Source: Loktanella sp. M215
GTDB taxonomy: Bacteria; Pseudomonadota; Alphaproteobacteria; Rhodobacterales; Rhodobacteraceae
Direction of reading: 5' to 3'
Length of the DNA: 64,000 bases
Assembly (NCBI RefSeq): GCF_021735925.1
Contig: NZ_WMEA01000008.1
Location: 69,373-133,372 of the forward strand
Positions 45,565 through 51,643 of the stretch are shown here, piece by piece (the stretch's first letter is position 1; each line of letters opens with the position of its first letter). Both the position numbers and the translations under genes were made by a program. The notes under the pieces were generated by a model, which did not search any database, was not told the DNA's origin, and saw only the letters and a program-made list of their open reading frames with translations.

Positions 45565-46334
45565 ATGACGAGACGGAAGTTTAGCCGCGAGTTCAAGATC
45601 GAGGCGGTAAGGCTGGTGACCGAGCGAGGCGTTGCGGTCGCTCAGGCGTGCCGGGACCTGGATCTTGCGGAGAGCGTGGCTCGCGTCGCTGGATGCGGGA
45701 ATTGATGGGAGCGCCTGTTGCGGCGTTTCCCGGCAATGGCTTGCAACGCGCAGAATTGGCCGAGATTGCGACCCTGAAGAGAGAGGTCGCCAAGCTCAAG
45801 GCGGAGCGTGACATCCTAAAAAAAGGCGGCAGCTTACTTCGCGCGGGAAGCGACATGACGTTCGCTTACGTGGCAAAGCATCGGCACATTTGGCCGGTCA
45901 GCTGGATGTGCGCGGTGCTGGGCGTCTCCCGATCCGGCTTTCATGCCTGGCTCAGAAGGCCGATAAGCGAACGCGCGGCTCAGGATGCAAAGCTCGTCCA
46001 GTCGATCGACAAGAGCTTCAAGGCCAGCGATCGCACCTATGGCGCCCGCCGGGTCTGGCGTGACGTTCTGGAAGAAGGTCTCGCATGTGGACTGCACCGG
46101 ATCGAACGCTTGATGCGGCTAAATGCAATGAGAGCGCGGCCCAAACGCCGCGGGAACCCGAAGGATGACGGCGAGCGGTCGGTCATCGCCGACAACATCC
46201 TTGACCGCGACTTCACAGCAGACCGGCCGAACCAGAAGTGGCTTGCCGACTTCACCTACATCTGGACCGCAGAGGGCTGGCTCTACGTGGCGGTCGTGCT
46301 GGACCTGTTCTCCAGGGTTCGCCATTGTGCTTGA
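45565..46334 (+). pseudogene. IS3 transposase 5' part, frameshifted (copy 2)
   Basis: It is the equivalent of 215-982 in copy 1. The CTGCG of copy 1 reads GCTCGCG here, so OrfA loses frame after about 40 codons and the in-frame remainder only reopens near 45648. Hairpin insert 1 again ends the frame at 46334. At least two lesions make it inactive. Confidence 0.85.
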
Positions 46335-46344
46335 ACCAATGGCG
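46320..46344 (+). repeat. hairpin insert 1 in IS copy 2
   Basis: Identical 8-bp stem and 9-nt loop to 968-992. Confidence 0.7.
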
Positions 46345-46356
46345 CATCAATGGCTC

Positions 46357-46812
46357 ACCGTCGGCTGGTCCATGAAGGCGGAACGGGATGCTTCACTGGT
46401 CATGGATGCGCTGATCCCTCTCATGGTTTGCCAGTCATTCCACCGGAATGACCTGCAAACCACTGCCGGGCAGCGGATGGCCGTCTGGCGGCGCGGAAAG
46501 GCTGACGCGCTGCTCCATCACTCAGACCAAGGATCGCAATATACCAGTGAGCAGTTTCAGCGCCTGCTGCTGGACAACGGCATCATTTGCCGGGTGAGCC
46601 GTGCGGGCAATGTGTGGGACAACTCAGCAATGGAGAGCTTCTTCTCGTCGCTGAAGATCGAACGGACAGCCCGCAAGGTCTACCGCACCCGTGACGCGGC
46701 ACGCGCCGACGTGTTCGACTACATCGAGCGCTTTTACAATCCGAGGCGACGGCATTCGAAGCTGGGCTATCTCAGCCCTATGGCGTTCGAGGACCGAGCT
46801 ATGCAAACCTAA
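46357..46812 (+). pseudogene. IS3 transposase 3' part (copy 2)
   Basis: It is the equivalent of 1005-1460, with the second Asp and the Glu of the DDE triad, and again contains the in-frame extra segment with hairpin 2. Confidence 0.75.
46425..46461 (+). repeat. hairpin insert 2 in IS copy 2
   Basis: Same imperfect 17-bp stem as 1073-1109. Confidence 0.7.
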
Positions 46813-47208: not shown

Positions 47209-47643
47209 TTAAGCGGGTTTTGGTCGCGGTATCTCGCCCCAAATCCGTCCGATCCAATCGGCGCGTTCGGTGAGTTCATCAAAGGCAACATCCTTGGAGA
47301 TCAGCGGGCAGGAAAGTTCGATGGCTGTTGCCGCGATCATCCGGTCAAACGGATCCTTGTGTGCCCAGTCCATCCCCCCTGATAAAACCGCCATCTCCGC
47401 AGTATAGGGTGCTACAACGCCCCCTTGGGCGCGCAAAAGAAGCGGCAGACGGTCGACAATTGAGCCAACCTCTATCCATTTTCCCGACCGGTGCTTGGCA
47501 GTAATCTCGTGGAAGGCGCAGGGGGGCACGTAAACCGTCCGCGCCTGCTCGATCACCTCACTGGCGACGGAAGAGAGTTCGTCCTTGCGAAACAGGCTCC
47601 AGACCCAAGTGTGGGTATCCAAAAGAACAGTCGTCAGGTCCAA
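47209..47643 (-). CDS. PIN-domain toxin (VapC type)
   Basis: The 144-residue PIN-fold RNase has acidic residues in LLDTHTWVWSL, FHEITAKHRSG and DPFDRMIAATAIE, with the final strand CPLISKDVAF. These are the expected positions of the Mg-binding quartet, and D-T-H-T-W/HKDPFDRMI is the common subgroup paired with Phd-type antitoxins. It overlaps the antitoxin gene by 10 nt. Confidence 0.9.
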   Translation of the reverse strand: MDLTTVLLDTHTWVWSLFRKDELSSVASEVIEQARTVYVPPCAFHEITAKHRSGKWIEVGSIVDRLPLLLRAQGGVVAPYTAEMAVLSGGMDWAHKDPFDRMIAATAIELSCPLISKDVAFDELTERADWIGRIWGEIPRPKPA

Positions 47644-47861
47644 AGCGCGATCTCGTCGTCCGCCATGGGTGCGAGAAAATCAGGGATACCGGTCACGTCC
47701 CCCTCGGCGATCCCAATACGGAATACAGGCCCCGTGATCTGGGCCGACACCAGGCGGACGATCGGTTTACCGCCCCGCGCGATTATAACCTCTTCGCCAC
47801 GTTCTGCAGCTGCGATAAGCTCCGACAGTTTGGCCTTCGCTTCCGCGATATTCATTTGCAT
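47634..47861 (-). CDS. Phd/YefM-type antitoxin
   Basis: The 75-residue protein has the Phd fold start MNIAEAKAKLSELIAAAERGEEVIIARGGKPIVRLV, a DNA-binding/dimerisation domain, and a C-terminal toxin-binding tail ending DFLAPMADDEIALW. GGAGG six bases upstream fixes the ATG at 47861. It is encoded before and overlaps the PIN toxin. Confidence 0.88.
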   Translation of the reverse strand: MQMNIAEAKAKLSELIAAAERGEEVIIARGGKPIVRLVSAQITGPVFRIGIAEGDVTGIPDFLAPMADDEIALWT

Positions 47862-48314
47862 GGGAAGCCTCCACAGCGACCACGCCAATGTGGTCCAACA
47901 CATAGACTAACGTAGTTGATGGTCCACGGTGTGACAAGTATCGAAATGCGGTTAGTTCGCCTTGATGGGAGAGCCAGTCCGTCAGAAATGCGGTGCTGGA
48001 GAAGCAGTAGGAACGCGTGATTCCGCAACCGGTCGACTACTAACGCGGCTGGGTCACGTTCAATTTAACGGGCATGCCGAATGGCAGCACCAGCAAACTG
48101 GGAGGGTAGGATTGCGATCACGACCGGCAGTCCCCGGATCCCAACCGCGACGGGCACCGGCATTAAACCCGTGCTATCCGGCCAAACGATGTTCACCACC
48201 TTCCACTTTACCGGTCTACCCGCACCCCATCCAATGTCATCGTGCTGGACGACAAATTTCAAATATCAAAACCCTTTCTTCACTACGATCAGCGCGACAG
48301 ATCATACCTGTCAG
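47862..48314. other. intergenic, no gene recognised
   Basis: Open frames on both strands are short of recognisable homology. A 65-codon minus-strand frame (48065-48262) has some coding feel (VVNIVWPDSTGLMPVPVAVG) but no family. Confidence 0.4.
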
Positions 48315-48897: not shown

Positions 48898-50262
48898 ATG
48901 ACAGTCCGGATGTCCGGTGGTGCGGCCCGTGCGGCACCCCGAAATCGGTTGAAACACCTTCAGGATTATGCGCGCGCCGTCAAAGCTCTGACATGGCAGC
49001 GCCAAGGCATATTTGCCGCCGTAGCCCTTCTGACCGGCTGGTTTTTCACGCCTTGGAAAGCAGAGCTGTTCTTTGCCGTCGGTATGCTGTGCGAGATCGT
49101 GGATCTGCGGCTTGCAAACCGCGTCGACCGGGTCCGCGCGGACGATGTCAAAGGCATGGGGCTGATCCTGACCGGCTTCGTGCTGAACACGATCGTCAGT
49201 GCGTCCACCATCGGCATATATGCAGTCTGGGTTGCCCTGACCGAAGATGGTGTGGGCATGTTCACCGCCCTGTTCTGTCTGTTCGCCGGGGCCATCTTTG
49301 CGGCAATGAACAATCATCAGATCGCGCGCCTTTTGGCGATCCGGCTGACCATCTATGCTGTGGCCTTCCTGGTCATGACCATGCGGGACCTGGTCGTCTA
49401 TCGTCCACCCCTGTCGTCCGACCTGTGGCTGCAATTCTTTACGGTCATGTTCGTGATGTATTTCCTGATCGACTGTTCGCTCAGCTTCCTGCGGATGTAC
49501 CGCACAGACCTCAAGCGGCTTGAAGACCTGCAAGCCGAGCATGAGCGCACAAAGGCAGCGCTTGTCGTGAAATCCCAGTTCGTGGCCGCCGTGAGCCACG
49601 AGCTACGGACACCGTTGACGTCGATCAAGGGATCGCTTGACCTGATCAATACCGGCAAGTTCGGAGAGCTGCCGCCACGGGTGCAGAATCTGCTGACGGT
49701 CGCGGGGCGGAACAGCAAGCGCCTTGCCGATCTTGTCGATGACCTTCTGGATCTGCAAAAGCTCGAAGAAGGACAGATGACCTTTGACAACCAGACGATC
49801 GAGGTCCGGTCGTTCCTGGCCGACGCTGTGGGCGACCATCAGGGGCTGGCCGAAAGATACAATGTCAATCTGAATTTCCGGGCTGATGACGCCCCGGCCG
49901 TCCACGTCCACGCCGACCGCGCGCGGTTGATGCAGGTGCTTTCGAACATGATCTCGAATGCAGCGAAGTTTTCGATGGCCAAGGGCGATGTCGATATCGG
50001 GCTGTCGGTTGCGCAGGGCTGGATCCGGATCTTCGTGCGCGACTACGGCATAGGAATCCCCGATGACAGCAAGGCACAGGTCTTCGAACGATTCAGGCAA
50101 CTCGATCCCTCGGACCAGAGGAAATGCGGCGGCACGGGCCTTGGCATGAATATCTCTCGTGAAATCGTGGCCGCCTTGGGCGGACTGATCGACTACGACA
50201 GCACGGTTGGGGTCGGGACGACCTTTTATGTCGACCTGCCCTGCACGGGGAGTCCCGGGTAA
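48898..50262 (+). CDS. membrane sensor histidine kinase
   Basis: The 454-residue kinase has about six hydrophobic segments over residues 35-205 (GIFAAVALLTGWFF; LILTGFVLNTIVSASTIGIYAVW; LRLTIYAVAFLVM; FFTVMFVMYFLIDCSLSFL) and no sizable periplasmic loop, so the membrane region is the likely sensor. HisKA phospho-His is about residue 233 (AVSHELRTPLTSIKGSL). The ATPase domain has N box NMISNAAKFS, G1 DYGIGIP and G2 GGTGLGMNISREIV. No response regulator is adjacent. It sits directly before the methyltransferase and acyltransferase genes, suggesting a role in sensing a lipophilic signal. Confidence 0.9.
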   Translation: MTVRMSGGAARAAPRNRLKHLQDYARAVKALTWQRQGIFAAVALLTGWFFTPWKAELFFAVGMLCEIVDLRLANRVDRVRADDVKGMGLILTGFVLNTIVSASTIGIYAVWVALTEDGVGMFTALFCLFAGAIFAAMNNHQIARLLAIRLTIYAVAFLVMTMRDLVVYRPPLSSDLWLQFFTVMFVMYFLIDCSLSFLRMYRTDLKRLEDLQAEHERTKAALVVKSQFVAAVSHELRTPLTSIKGSLDLINTGKFGELPPRVQNLLTVAGRNSKRLADLVDDLLDLQKLEEGQMTFDNQTIEVRSFLADAVGDHQGLAERYNVNLNFRADDAPAVHVHADRARLMQVLSNMISNAAKFSMAKGDVDIGLSVAQGWIRIFVRDYGIGIPDDSKAQVFERFRQLDPSDQRKCGGTGLGMNISREIVAALGGLIDYDSTVGVGTTFYVDLPCTGSPG

Positions 50263-50317
50263 CCCTGCGTAACCCTCATCGCCTGAAGATGCAGCAGCCA
50301 AGAGATTGACGCATAAG

Positions 50318-50339
50318 CCCGTTGGAAATTATCAACGGG
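50318..50339 (+). repeat. hairpin between kinase and methyltransferase genes
   Basis: CCCGTTG (50318-50324) and CAACGGG (50333-50339) form a perfect 7-bp stem with an 8-nt loop. No T tract follows, so termination is uncertain. Confidence 0.4.
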
Positions 50340-50507
50340 ACGTGCGAAGTCGCTTGCCGCAACATTCATTCGACTTTACGTTCAATCTATCGGCACCTCT
50401 GATTTGGTTAACACCATCTTAGGTAGCGTTAGTGTAGACCCGGTCATGGGTATTGTTAACGATTGAAAACGGATGGATGCCGAAGCTCATGAAAGATAAA
50501 AAGACAA

Positions 50508-51062
50508 GTGTCGCACATTTTTGATGTCGTGATCGGCTTGGCCGCACTCGCGTATTTTTTGGTGATTGCTGCAGCAACAAAGCAACATTTCACATCAGAG
50601 ACATATCCCATTGGGATGGTGCTGATCTCGACGCTTTCGCTGGTTGGCCTATCGGTCTTCATGGCGCACGCTTTCCTCTGGACGCTGGATTTTCCGGCCA
50701 TCGTCTTCGGGATGATCCTTGCCGCATCCGCGTTGTTTGCATGGGCGATCAAGCACAGCCGGGACTGCAGGCTGTCTCTCGCGTTCGACGAGGATCTGAA
50801 GATCGACGGCATCATCACGACTGGCCCTTGGCGATATGTGCGGCACCCCTTCTATACATCCTACGTCCTGTTCTGGTCGGCCTGTGCTCTGGGCACGACC
50901 CATATGGCGTCGGTCACGGTCTGCGTCACTTTGGTTTTCATCTACGTCTATTCGGCCATAAAGGAAGAAGGCGTTCTTCGCCGCAGCACGCACGGTCCGG
51001 CTTACCTAAGTTATAAAACCAGAACAGGTTTCTTCTTTCCGCGCTACAGGCTGAAACCCTAA
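50508..51062 (+). CDS. ICMT/PEMT-family membrane carboxyl methyltransferase
   Basis: The 184-residue protein has about five membrane segments. The catalytic C-terminal signature of isoprenylcysteine carboxyl methyltransferase-like enzymes is DGIITTGPWRYVRHPFYTSYVL (RHPxY S-adenosylmethionine motif) followed by IKEEGVLRRSTHGPAYLSYKTRTGFFFPRY (EExxL...Y..Y). The family methylates carboxylates, phospholipid head groups or sterols at the membrane. The GTG start at 50508 gives the first helix. Its stop overlaps the start of the FeeM-like gene by one base, so the two are translationally coupled. Confidence 0.85.
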   Translation: MSHIFDVVIGLAALAYFLVIAAATKQHFTSETYPIGMVLISTLSLVGLSVFMAHAFLWTLDFPAIVFGMILAASALFAWAIKHSRDCRLSLAFDEDLKIDGIITTGPWRYVRHPFYTSYVLFWSACALGTTHMASVTVCVTLVFIYVYSAIKEEGVLRRSTHGPAYLSYKTRTGFFFPRYRLKP

Positions 51063-51643
51063 TGCTGCTCGCGACCAAGTTCGATGTCAGCCGCGTGCAA
51101 TCAAAGGGTGGCCTGATCGCGGTCGGCTCTTTTCGCTATAATTGCTATCTGGCGGATGGGCTGATCGGAAATCGCGCCGACGGAAGCTTTCTGGACGAAT
51201 ACGATTACGTCGATAACGCGCAGGTTTACGTCCTGAAATCAGGCGACAGGATCGGGGGCACGATCCGGCTGCATATTCTGGATCGCTCCAGCGCCCGCTC
51301 GGCCACGATGTCGGCGTTTTACGATATTCTACAGCCAAAGATTCTGGCCGGCCTGACGCTGATCGACGGTGCGCGGTTTGCGGTCGCACCCGATCTGGGG
51401 GCGCGGCGGCTGTCCGTCGCGCGGCAGACGCTGCGTATCTATGCCAACTTCGCCAAGCTGCATGACGTGGATTACGGGATCGCTGCCGTGTCGCAGGACC
51501 GGGTCGCCTTCTATAGCCAGCTATACGGCTTCGACCAACTGTCAGAACCGCGGTCTTACGGCGGGCTAAGCAAGAAGTTGGTCCTGATGGGTGTCGATCT
51601 ACGCACCTCTGGATTTGCCGATCGGCACGCCCGCATCAGCTGA
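51062..51643 (+). CDS. FeeM-like N-acyl amino acid synthase / LuxI-fold acyltransferase
   Basis: The 193-residue protein looks like the GNAT-fold catalytic core of N-acyl amino acid synthases (FeeM), relatives of acyl-homoserine lactone synthases. An N-terminal FRYNCYLADGLI helix is followed by acidic strands (EYDYVDNAQVYVLKSGDRIGGTIRLHIL). LIDGARFAVAPDLGARRLSVARQTLRIYA corresponds to the ExSRFxVxP block, and VAFYSQLYGFDQL to the terminal GNAT motif. It would transfer an acyl chain from acyl-ACP to an amino acid amine. With the coupled ICMT-type methyltransferase it could yield N-acyl amino acid methyl esters. Product identity is inference. Confidence 0.72.
   Translation: MLLATKFDVSRVQSKGGLIAVGSFRYNCYLADGLIGNRADGSFLDEYDYVDNAQVYVLKSGDRIGGTIRLHILDRSSARSATMSAFYDILQPKILAGLTLIDGARFAVAPDLGARRLSVARQTLRIYANFAKLHDVDYGIAAVSQDRVAFYSQLYGFDQLSEPRSYGGLSKKLVLMGVDLRTSGFADRHARIS

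Follow-up and report, generated by a model that had tools for sequence, protein, structure and literature searches.

In the Loktanella sp. M215 genome, a 64,000-nucleotide stretch of contig NZ_WMEA01000008.1 (hereafter the window) contains three neighbouring genes that encode a sensor histidine kinase, a membrane methyltransferase of the ICMT/PEMT type and a FeeM-family N-acyl amino acid synthase. We propose that this trio is a cassette that makes and senses an N-acyl amino acid methyl ester. Judging from sequence, we lean modestly towards this joint claim, and we consider its pathway part alone, in which FeeM and the methyltransferase together make the ester, likely. As read here, the trio offers a two-gene candidate pathway, together with a candidate receptor, for compounds that have had no assigned genes. 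A kinase, ICMT-type and FeeM-like trio had been noticed in a sequence-only reading of the window, and family profiles and fold comparison confirm that observation.

Synthase, methyltransferase and kinase of the window

The window synthase scores 117.4 bits against the Pfam FeeM family (PF21926, gathering score 27). Its predicted structure is of high confidence (predicted local distance difference test, pLDDT, 91.3) and belongs to the FeeM/GNAT fold, with the FeeM structure 2g0b as the best match. The two proteins share 16% identity in the fold alignments, and 2g0b was recovered by fold comparison only, not by sequence searches of the PDB with the window protein. The FeeM core that the sequence-only reading expected in this gene is therefore present. 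The LuxI profile PF00765 reaches 16.8 bits on the same protein, under its cut-off of 24, and on profile scores and fold together we reject an ordinary acyl-homoserine lactone (AHL) synthase. The exosortase-associated acyltransferase model TIGR03694 gave no match in a search of NCBIfam with E up to 1, which returned only a weak hit to NF010408 (E 0.13). FeeM-type enzymes are named for N-acyl amino acid synthesis, and such products keep a free carboxylate. By its family and fold, the window synthase probably makes N-acyl amino acids, with the acyl group taken from acyl carrier protein (acyl-ACP). It differs from the FeeM of 2g0b in having methyltransferase and kinase partners; neither FeeM's own cluster nor the exosortase-linked acyltransferases are known to have them.

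The stop codon of the methyltransferase shares one base with the FeeM ATG. The methyltransferase passes the Pfam cut-offs of both the PEMT family (PF04191, 31.6 bits against 25) and the ICMT family (PF04140, 24.9 against 24), and it has conserved RHPxY and EE motifs; profiles and motifs together place it in the ICMT/PEMT superfamily. Profile matches in the PDB include the ICMT structure 4a2n (E 9.4e-6) and 8xku (E 5e-8). Assignment as a canonical ICMT (NF040696) was rejected, since the NCBI equivalog cut-off is not reached. The kinase contains HisKA (67.5 bits) and HATPase_c (92.7 bits) domains behind a membrane sensor in which hydropathy marks four hydrophobic stretches clearly and two more faintly, and the structural model places six helices, at low confidence (pLDDT 64).

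Two kinds of FeeM–methyltransferase loci

A 29-row FeeM alignment, used to scan named genomes, yielded 12 loci, 10 close and 2 distant. The close ones belong to Loktanella atrilutea, L. fryxellensis, L. salsilacus, five Marivita records, Arenibacterium halophilum and Oceanicola granulosus, and together with two loci of the window genome they make up our type A set (n = 12). The second window-genome locus, on contig C4 (L003), is a full trio in the same gene order, with a FeeM 51% identical to the first. A methyltransferase lies directly 5' of FeeM in all 12 type A loci, and a kinase precedes both in 11. In two further L. salsilacus strains, the locus is carried on plasmids. The 2 distant FeeM loci (26-32% identity) have neither methyltransferase nor kinase by BLAST. 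Another methyltransferase 3' of the L. salsilacus FeeM (L029 9582-10181) is of a different family (PF04445) and was excluded from the count. Relatives of the ICMT-type gene at 31-35% identity occur on 14 Rhizobium and Neorhizobium plasmids; 2 of the 14 were examined, and BLAST found no FeeM within 4 kb in either.

More divergent FeeM proteins (about 30% identity) in other Rhodobacteraceae adjoin a full-length kinase of the window kinase's family, 42-44% identical over about 430 residues, sensor included. At these type B loci, the partner is a class I S-adenosylmethionine methyltransferase, not an ICMT. Three were identified by profile (Methyltransf_23/25/12) and the others by BLAST, and two plasmid records name the gene as such. 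The three genes stand together in 10/10 type B loci examined, which correspond to about 8 independent cases because L030/L052 and L047/L048 are close pairs. Nine have the order methyltransferase-FeeM-kinase; in L042, FeeM comes first and is followed by the methyltransferase and the kinase. In L041 (5053-6642, plus strand), methyltransferase and FeeM form one open frame of 529 residues in which Pfam finds both domains. A further type B FeeM, on NZ_CP139710, the third such plasmid from Sulfitobacter, lies outside these 10 loci. The type A and type B methyltransferases show no detectable similarity to each other (best blastp E 4.3).

We then counted both types in 394 Rhodobacteraceae genomes, a sample with roughly one genome for each genus. 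Because of this sampling, and because only the best few candidates in each genome were scored, the genome counts are lower bounds. The FeeM profiles (A1 and A2) reach only FeeM proteins close to type A or type B; the FeeM profile match in G302 (E 1.9e-6, residues 6-69) was counted as neither. Type A FeeM occurs in 4 genomes, and the type A methyltransferase (E up to 1e-20) in the same 4, with all five of its copies beside FeeM. The FeeM–ICMT pairing that the sequence-only reading predicted for relatives thus holds in the type A set and in this sample alike. Type B FeeM likewise occurs in 4 genomes. Its methyltransferase, at the same threshold, is found in those 4 and in G107, beside a FeeM-family gene in all 5. 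In G107 (L128 3964-6638, plus strand), a methyltransferase 46% identical to type B overlaps another FeeM-family gene, whose product scores 41.2 bits against PF21926 and was missed by the FeeM profiles. Instead of a kinase, a protein with a LuxR-type helix-turn-helix (GerE) match below cut-off stands in front of this pair.

FeeM relatives outside these types, in Aurantimonas (L017), Neorhizobium (L018), Palleronia (L051), Acidiphilium (L053), Deinococcus (L054) and Rhizobium tumorigenes (L057), have no kinase by BLAST. Next to the Aurantimonas and Neorhizobium genes are long proteins with a GGDEF/EAL-like look, as judged by eye. On the Deinococcus plasmid (L054 2925-5375, plus strand), a fatty acid desaturase gene and FeeM are followed by an overlapping class I methyltransferase gene.

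CtrA-type boxes (TTAA-N7-TTAA, at most one mismatch) were found in 4 of the 12 type A gaps, with 1.07 expected, and before the methyltransferase or first gene in 6 of the 10 type B loci, with 0.87 expected; they are exact in L040 and L049. These counts, whose expectations rest on mononucleotide shuffles, are a hint. CtrA sites are already known in quorum-sensing promoters (PMC4046655, in excerpt).

A sensor family shared with LuxI-like genes

A profile built from residues 1-205 of the window kinase, the sensor, is present in 50 of the 394 genomes. Wherever FeeM of type A or type B is present (8 genomes), the sensor is adjacent to it, and these genomes supply the 9 top-scoring places. We examined 30 further sensor loci without FeeM (L098-L127), comprising one place each in 29 of the 42 sensor-bearing genomes that lack type A and type B FeeM, and the third locus of the window genome. 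Of these 30, 24 have a LuxI-like gene no more than 3 kb away and 26 have one no more than 3.7 kb away. Gaps were measured between open reading frame ends, and a few overlapping frames give negative values; among these are L113 and L123, whose LuxI-like and kinase frames overlap and which count as linked. All four LuxI-like proteins scanned exceed the PF00765 cut-off. Taken together, the kinase is linked to a candidate signal synthase in 11/12 type A, 10/10 type B and, within 3.7 kb, 26/30 non-FeeM loci. This linkage points to a sensor family that ties the FeeM loci to acyl signalling.

A response regulator of about 375 residues, counted at BLAST scores of at least 100 bits, lies within 3 kb in 23 of the 30 loci, and in each of the two that were profiled, a single receiver domain is all that Pfam recognises. 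Two Marivita species and L. salsilacus have relatives of this regulator in the neighbourhood of their type A loci. Four LuxI-linked loci whose sensors are among the nearest to type A (L098, L109, L110 and L114) also contain a P450-family gene, assigned by profile in L110 (PF00067, 254 bits) and by clustering in the other three. The third sensor-family kinase of the window genome (L118 4262-5731, minus strand) sits beside a YaeQ-family gene, and no synthase was found nearby.

In a tree of 51 sensors, type A and type B form clades with support of 100/100 and 100/99, respectively. Type A joins five LuxI-linked kinases at 100/100 with type B outside, the tree being midpoint-rooted and type B lying in an unresolved fork. 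The synthases fall into separate clades of type A FeeM, type B FeeM and LuxI-like proteins. The simplest reading is that FeeM and a methyltransferase joined the sensor family twice, with a different methyltransferase each time. More broadly, the pattern may reflect an exchangeable quorum-sensing architecture of the Rhodobacteraceae, in which one membrane-kinase family senses acyl-amino signals inside the membrane. The signals would come from a LuxI-like enzyme in most members and from FeeM paired, at least 2 times independently, with a methyltransferase of unrelated fold in the others. We advance this wider picture tentatively, and rate it short of even.

Proposed mechanism and its alternatives

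From gene content, fold and linkage, all observed, we infer substrate, product, ligand binding and output as follows. FeeM would acylate an amino acid at its amino group with a long-chain acyl group whose probable donor is acyl-ACP. Using S-adenosylmethionine, the membrane methyltransferase would then esterify the carboxylate of the N-acyl amino acid, producing an uncharged, lipophilic methyl ester. The membrane kinase encoded upstream would detect the ester within the membrane and pass phosphate to an unlinked response regulator. At type B loci, the class I methyltransferase would perform the equivalent methylation. Because a methyltransferase is kept beside FeeM in two unrelated forms, it most likely acts on the carboxylate. 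The kinase is the candidate ester sensor because of its linkage and the CqsS and PhcS precedents described below. Hence, of the sequence-only reading, the gene pairing and FeeM core stand as found, while the identity of the product and its binding by the kinase stay proposals.

The product class expected of the trio is known from the same bacteria. Loktanella isolates F13, F14 and D3 yielded N-acyl glycine methyl esters, and Roseovarius D12_1.68 yielded the corresponding esters of alanine, aminobutyrate and valine; the authors state that methanol was absent from sample preparation (PMC6296433). Earlier studies found no candidate synthase genes for these esters (PMC11580390, in excerpt), and a 2015 genome note on Roseovarius tolerans EL-164 assigned only AHLs to LuxI/LuxR genes (PMC4582587). 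The sequence-only reading, which mentioned such esters in Roseobacter extracts and no assigned genes for them, agrees with the first of these papers and the excerpted second. The window genome belongs to the same genus as the Loktanella species, and 8 of 9 genomes of this genus have a FeeM locus, four of type A, four of type B and none of both. FeeM proteins of Roseovarius (sp. 217, MBR-51 and metagenome-assembled genomes) appear among the best 120 of 228 type B matches. Therefore, both ester-producing genera carry FeeM candidates. We saw no earlier link between the parts of the trio and this product class in the open-access literature, which suggests, without proving, that the connection is new.

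Several observations weigh against the proposal. The window methyltransferase scores 41.4 bits where NCBI sets a cut-off of 160 for NF040696 (protein-S-isoprenylcysteine O-methyltransferase). L. fryxellensis (L008) is the sole type A locus without an adjacent kinase. Conversely, L. atrilutea has a lone second kinase (L133 1927-3345, plus strand) that is 89% identical to the C4 kinase, with neither methyltransferase nor FeeM found in the 9 kb examined and downstream frames that look transposase-like by eye. The 20 kb inspected around the window trio yielded no response regulator like that of the LuxI-linked loci. At four of the 30 sensor loci without FeeM, namely L101, L118, L121 and L126, no LuxI-like gene lies closer than 3.7 kb; L101 is situated where its contig ends, and L118 is the window genome's third copy. 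The LuxI-linked loci have neither type of methyltransferase by BLAST, save a weak type B match in L117, and therefore the sensor family as a whole needs none. Among the six other FeeM relatives, no methyltransferase was found beside FeeM in five, the hypothetical neighbours of L053 and L057 having been judged without profiles. The Roseovarius evidence consists of FeeM proteins alone, from strains other than R. tolerans EL-164. In that strain, the C16:1 ester increases steadily, and its role is, in the authors' preferred view, that of an antibiotic (PMC11580390, in excerpt).

On one rival view, the kinase merely tunes production or self-protection when the membrane is disturbed. Some of the esters are antibacterial and their producers anti-algal (PMC6296433; PMC11580390, in excerpt), and the ester builds up steadily, with no early peak (PMC11580390, in excerpt). 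That 26 of the 30 non-FeeM loci of the sensor family have a LuxI-like gene nearby argues instead for acyl-signal sensing, as does the separation of type A and B sensors into clades that each keep their own synthase type, and we regard a pure disturbance sensor as unlikely. Alternatively, the kinase might sense the free N-acyl amino acid, with methylation ending or changing the signal by inactivating it or making it exportable. Linkage alone is silent on which form is the ligand, and the overlap of methyltransferase and FeeM genes means that both forms may arise together. Yet methyl esters are the form in extracts of producer cultures prepared without methanol (PMC6296433), and PhcB/PhcS offers an earlier case of a kinase that senses a methyl ester (PMC11960443, in excerpt), so that we think the free acid rather improbable as the ligand.

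A role in membrane-lipid remodelling would have the methyltransferase act on a phospholipid, isoprenoid, thiol or protein, in an operon controlled by a membrane-sensing kinase. The best Pfam match of the methyltransferase is indeed the phospholipid methyltransferase family, and the NCBI models that it matches are named for isoprenylcysteine, lipid A-phosphate and methanethiol methyltransferases, all far under the NCBI cut-offs. Such a role is hard to reconcile with an unrelated class I methyltransferase filling the same slot in type B loci, once in frame with FeeM, or with the type A methyltransferase lying only beside FeeM in the 394 genomes (E up to 1e-20), and we give it little weight. Least probable is that the FeeM homologue serves as the AHL synthase of an ordinary acyl-homoserine lactone system. 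Some database records do call close relatives N-acyl-L-homoserine lactone synthetase, and the L. salsilacus homologue is annotated as an acyl-homoserine-lactone synthase. Against these names stand the profile scores given above, the fold nearest to FeeM and the separate clade of the LuxI-like genes; moreover, a lactone would have no carboxylate for the partner methyltransferase.

If the trio makes and senses its ester as we propose, it would work like other lipid-signal kinase systems, with parts and a product class that no publication we saw has connected. The CqsA/CqsS and LqsA/LqsS systems have the signal synthase gene nearby, and their signals are alpha-hydroxyketones from another enzyme family. 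Kinases of the CqsS type have six helices and sense a lipophilic signal with no extramembrane ligand-binding loops (PMC4821796, in excerpt). Quorum sensing in the Ralstonia solanacearum species complex uses a fatty methyl ester that is formed by a methyltransferase and perceived by a histidine kinase (PMC11960443 and PMC8578825, in excerpts). The methyltransferase is PhcB, the kinase is PhcS, and the product is methyl 3-hydroxymyristate (PMC11960443, in excerpt). This product is the ester of a hydroxy fatty acid, and the excerpts name no FeeM synthase; the comparison is one of scheme. The likeness of the window kinase to CqsS, LqsS and PhcS is one of linkage to a candidate signal synthase gene and, tentatively, of six-helix architecture. 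Should the kinase sense the ester, the trio would add a further methyl-ester signalling scheme, with a different synthase, beside PhcB/PhcS.

Closest in setting are the orphan luxI–histidine kinase loci of roseobacters (topologies H, I and J) described in 2013, for which a phosphorelay was proposed and LuxN was compared (PMC3824088, in excerpt). They too place a kinase beside a LuxI-like gene, a likeness drawn from their description and not from sequence, and they are probably of the same kind as our LuxI-linked sensor loci. The trio differs in having FeeM in place of LuxI and an added methyltransferase, and methyltransferase–FeeM sets are not mentioned in the excerpts of that account. Ester sensing by the window kinase would suggest that the orphan luxI genes of marine bacteria have neighbouring kinases that form one sensor family.

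Table 1. Coordinates of the trio and of neighbouring features in the window
Feature	Position	Strand	Basis
Integrase-type transposase	45648-46812	+	
PIN-domain protein and Phd/YefM-type antitoxin	47209-47903	-	
Sensor histidine kinase, 454 aa	48898..50262	+	Pfam, hydropathy, type A homologues
Kinase membrane sensor, about residues 37-198	49006-49491	+	hydropathy
Kinase H-box His234 (ATPase domain also in kinase)	49597-49599	+	
Kinase–methyltransferase intergenic gap, 245 bp	50263..50507	+	sequence
TTAA-N7-TTAG in the 245-bp gap, one mismatch from a CtrA-type site	50408-50422		weak
ICMT/PEMT-type membrane methyltransferase, 184 aa, GTG start	50508..51062	+	Pfam, PDB profile matches
FeeM-family N-acyl amino acid synthase, 193 aa	51062..51643	+	Pfam FeeM, model, fold match

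Two neighbouring features precede the trio. The transposase is split into two overlapping frames, the first of which contains HTH_21 and rve, and the PIN-domain protein and its Phd/YefM-type neighbour are likely a toxin-antitoxin pair.

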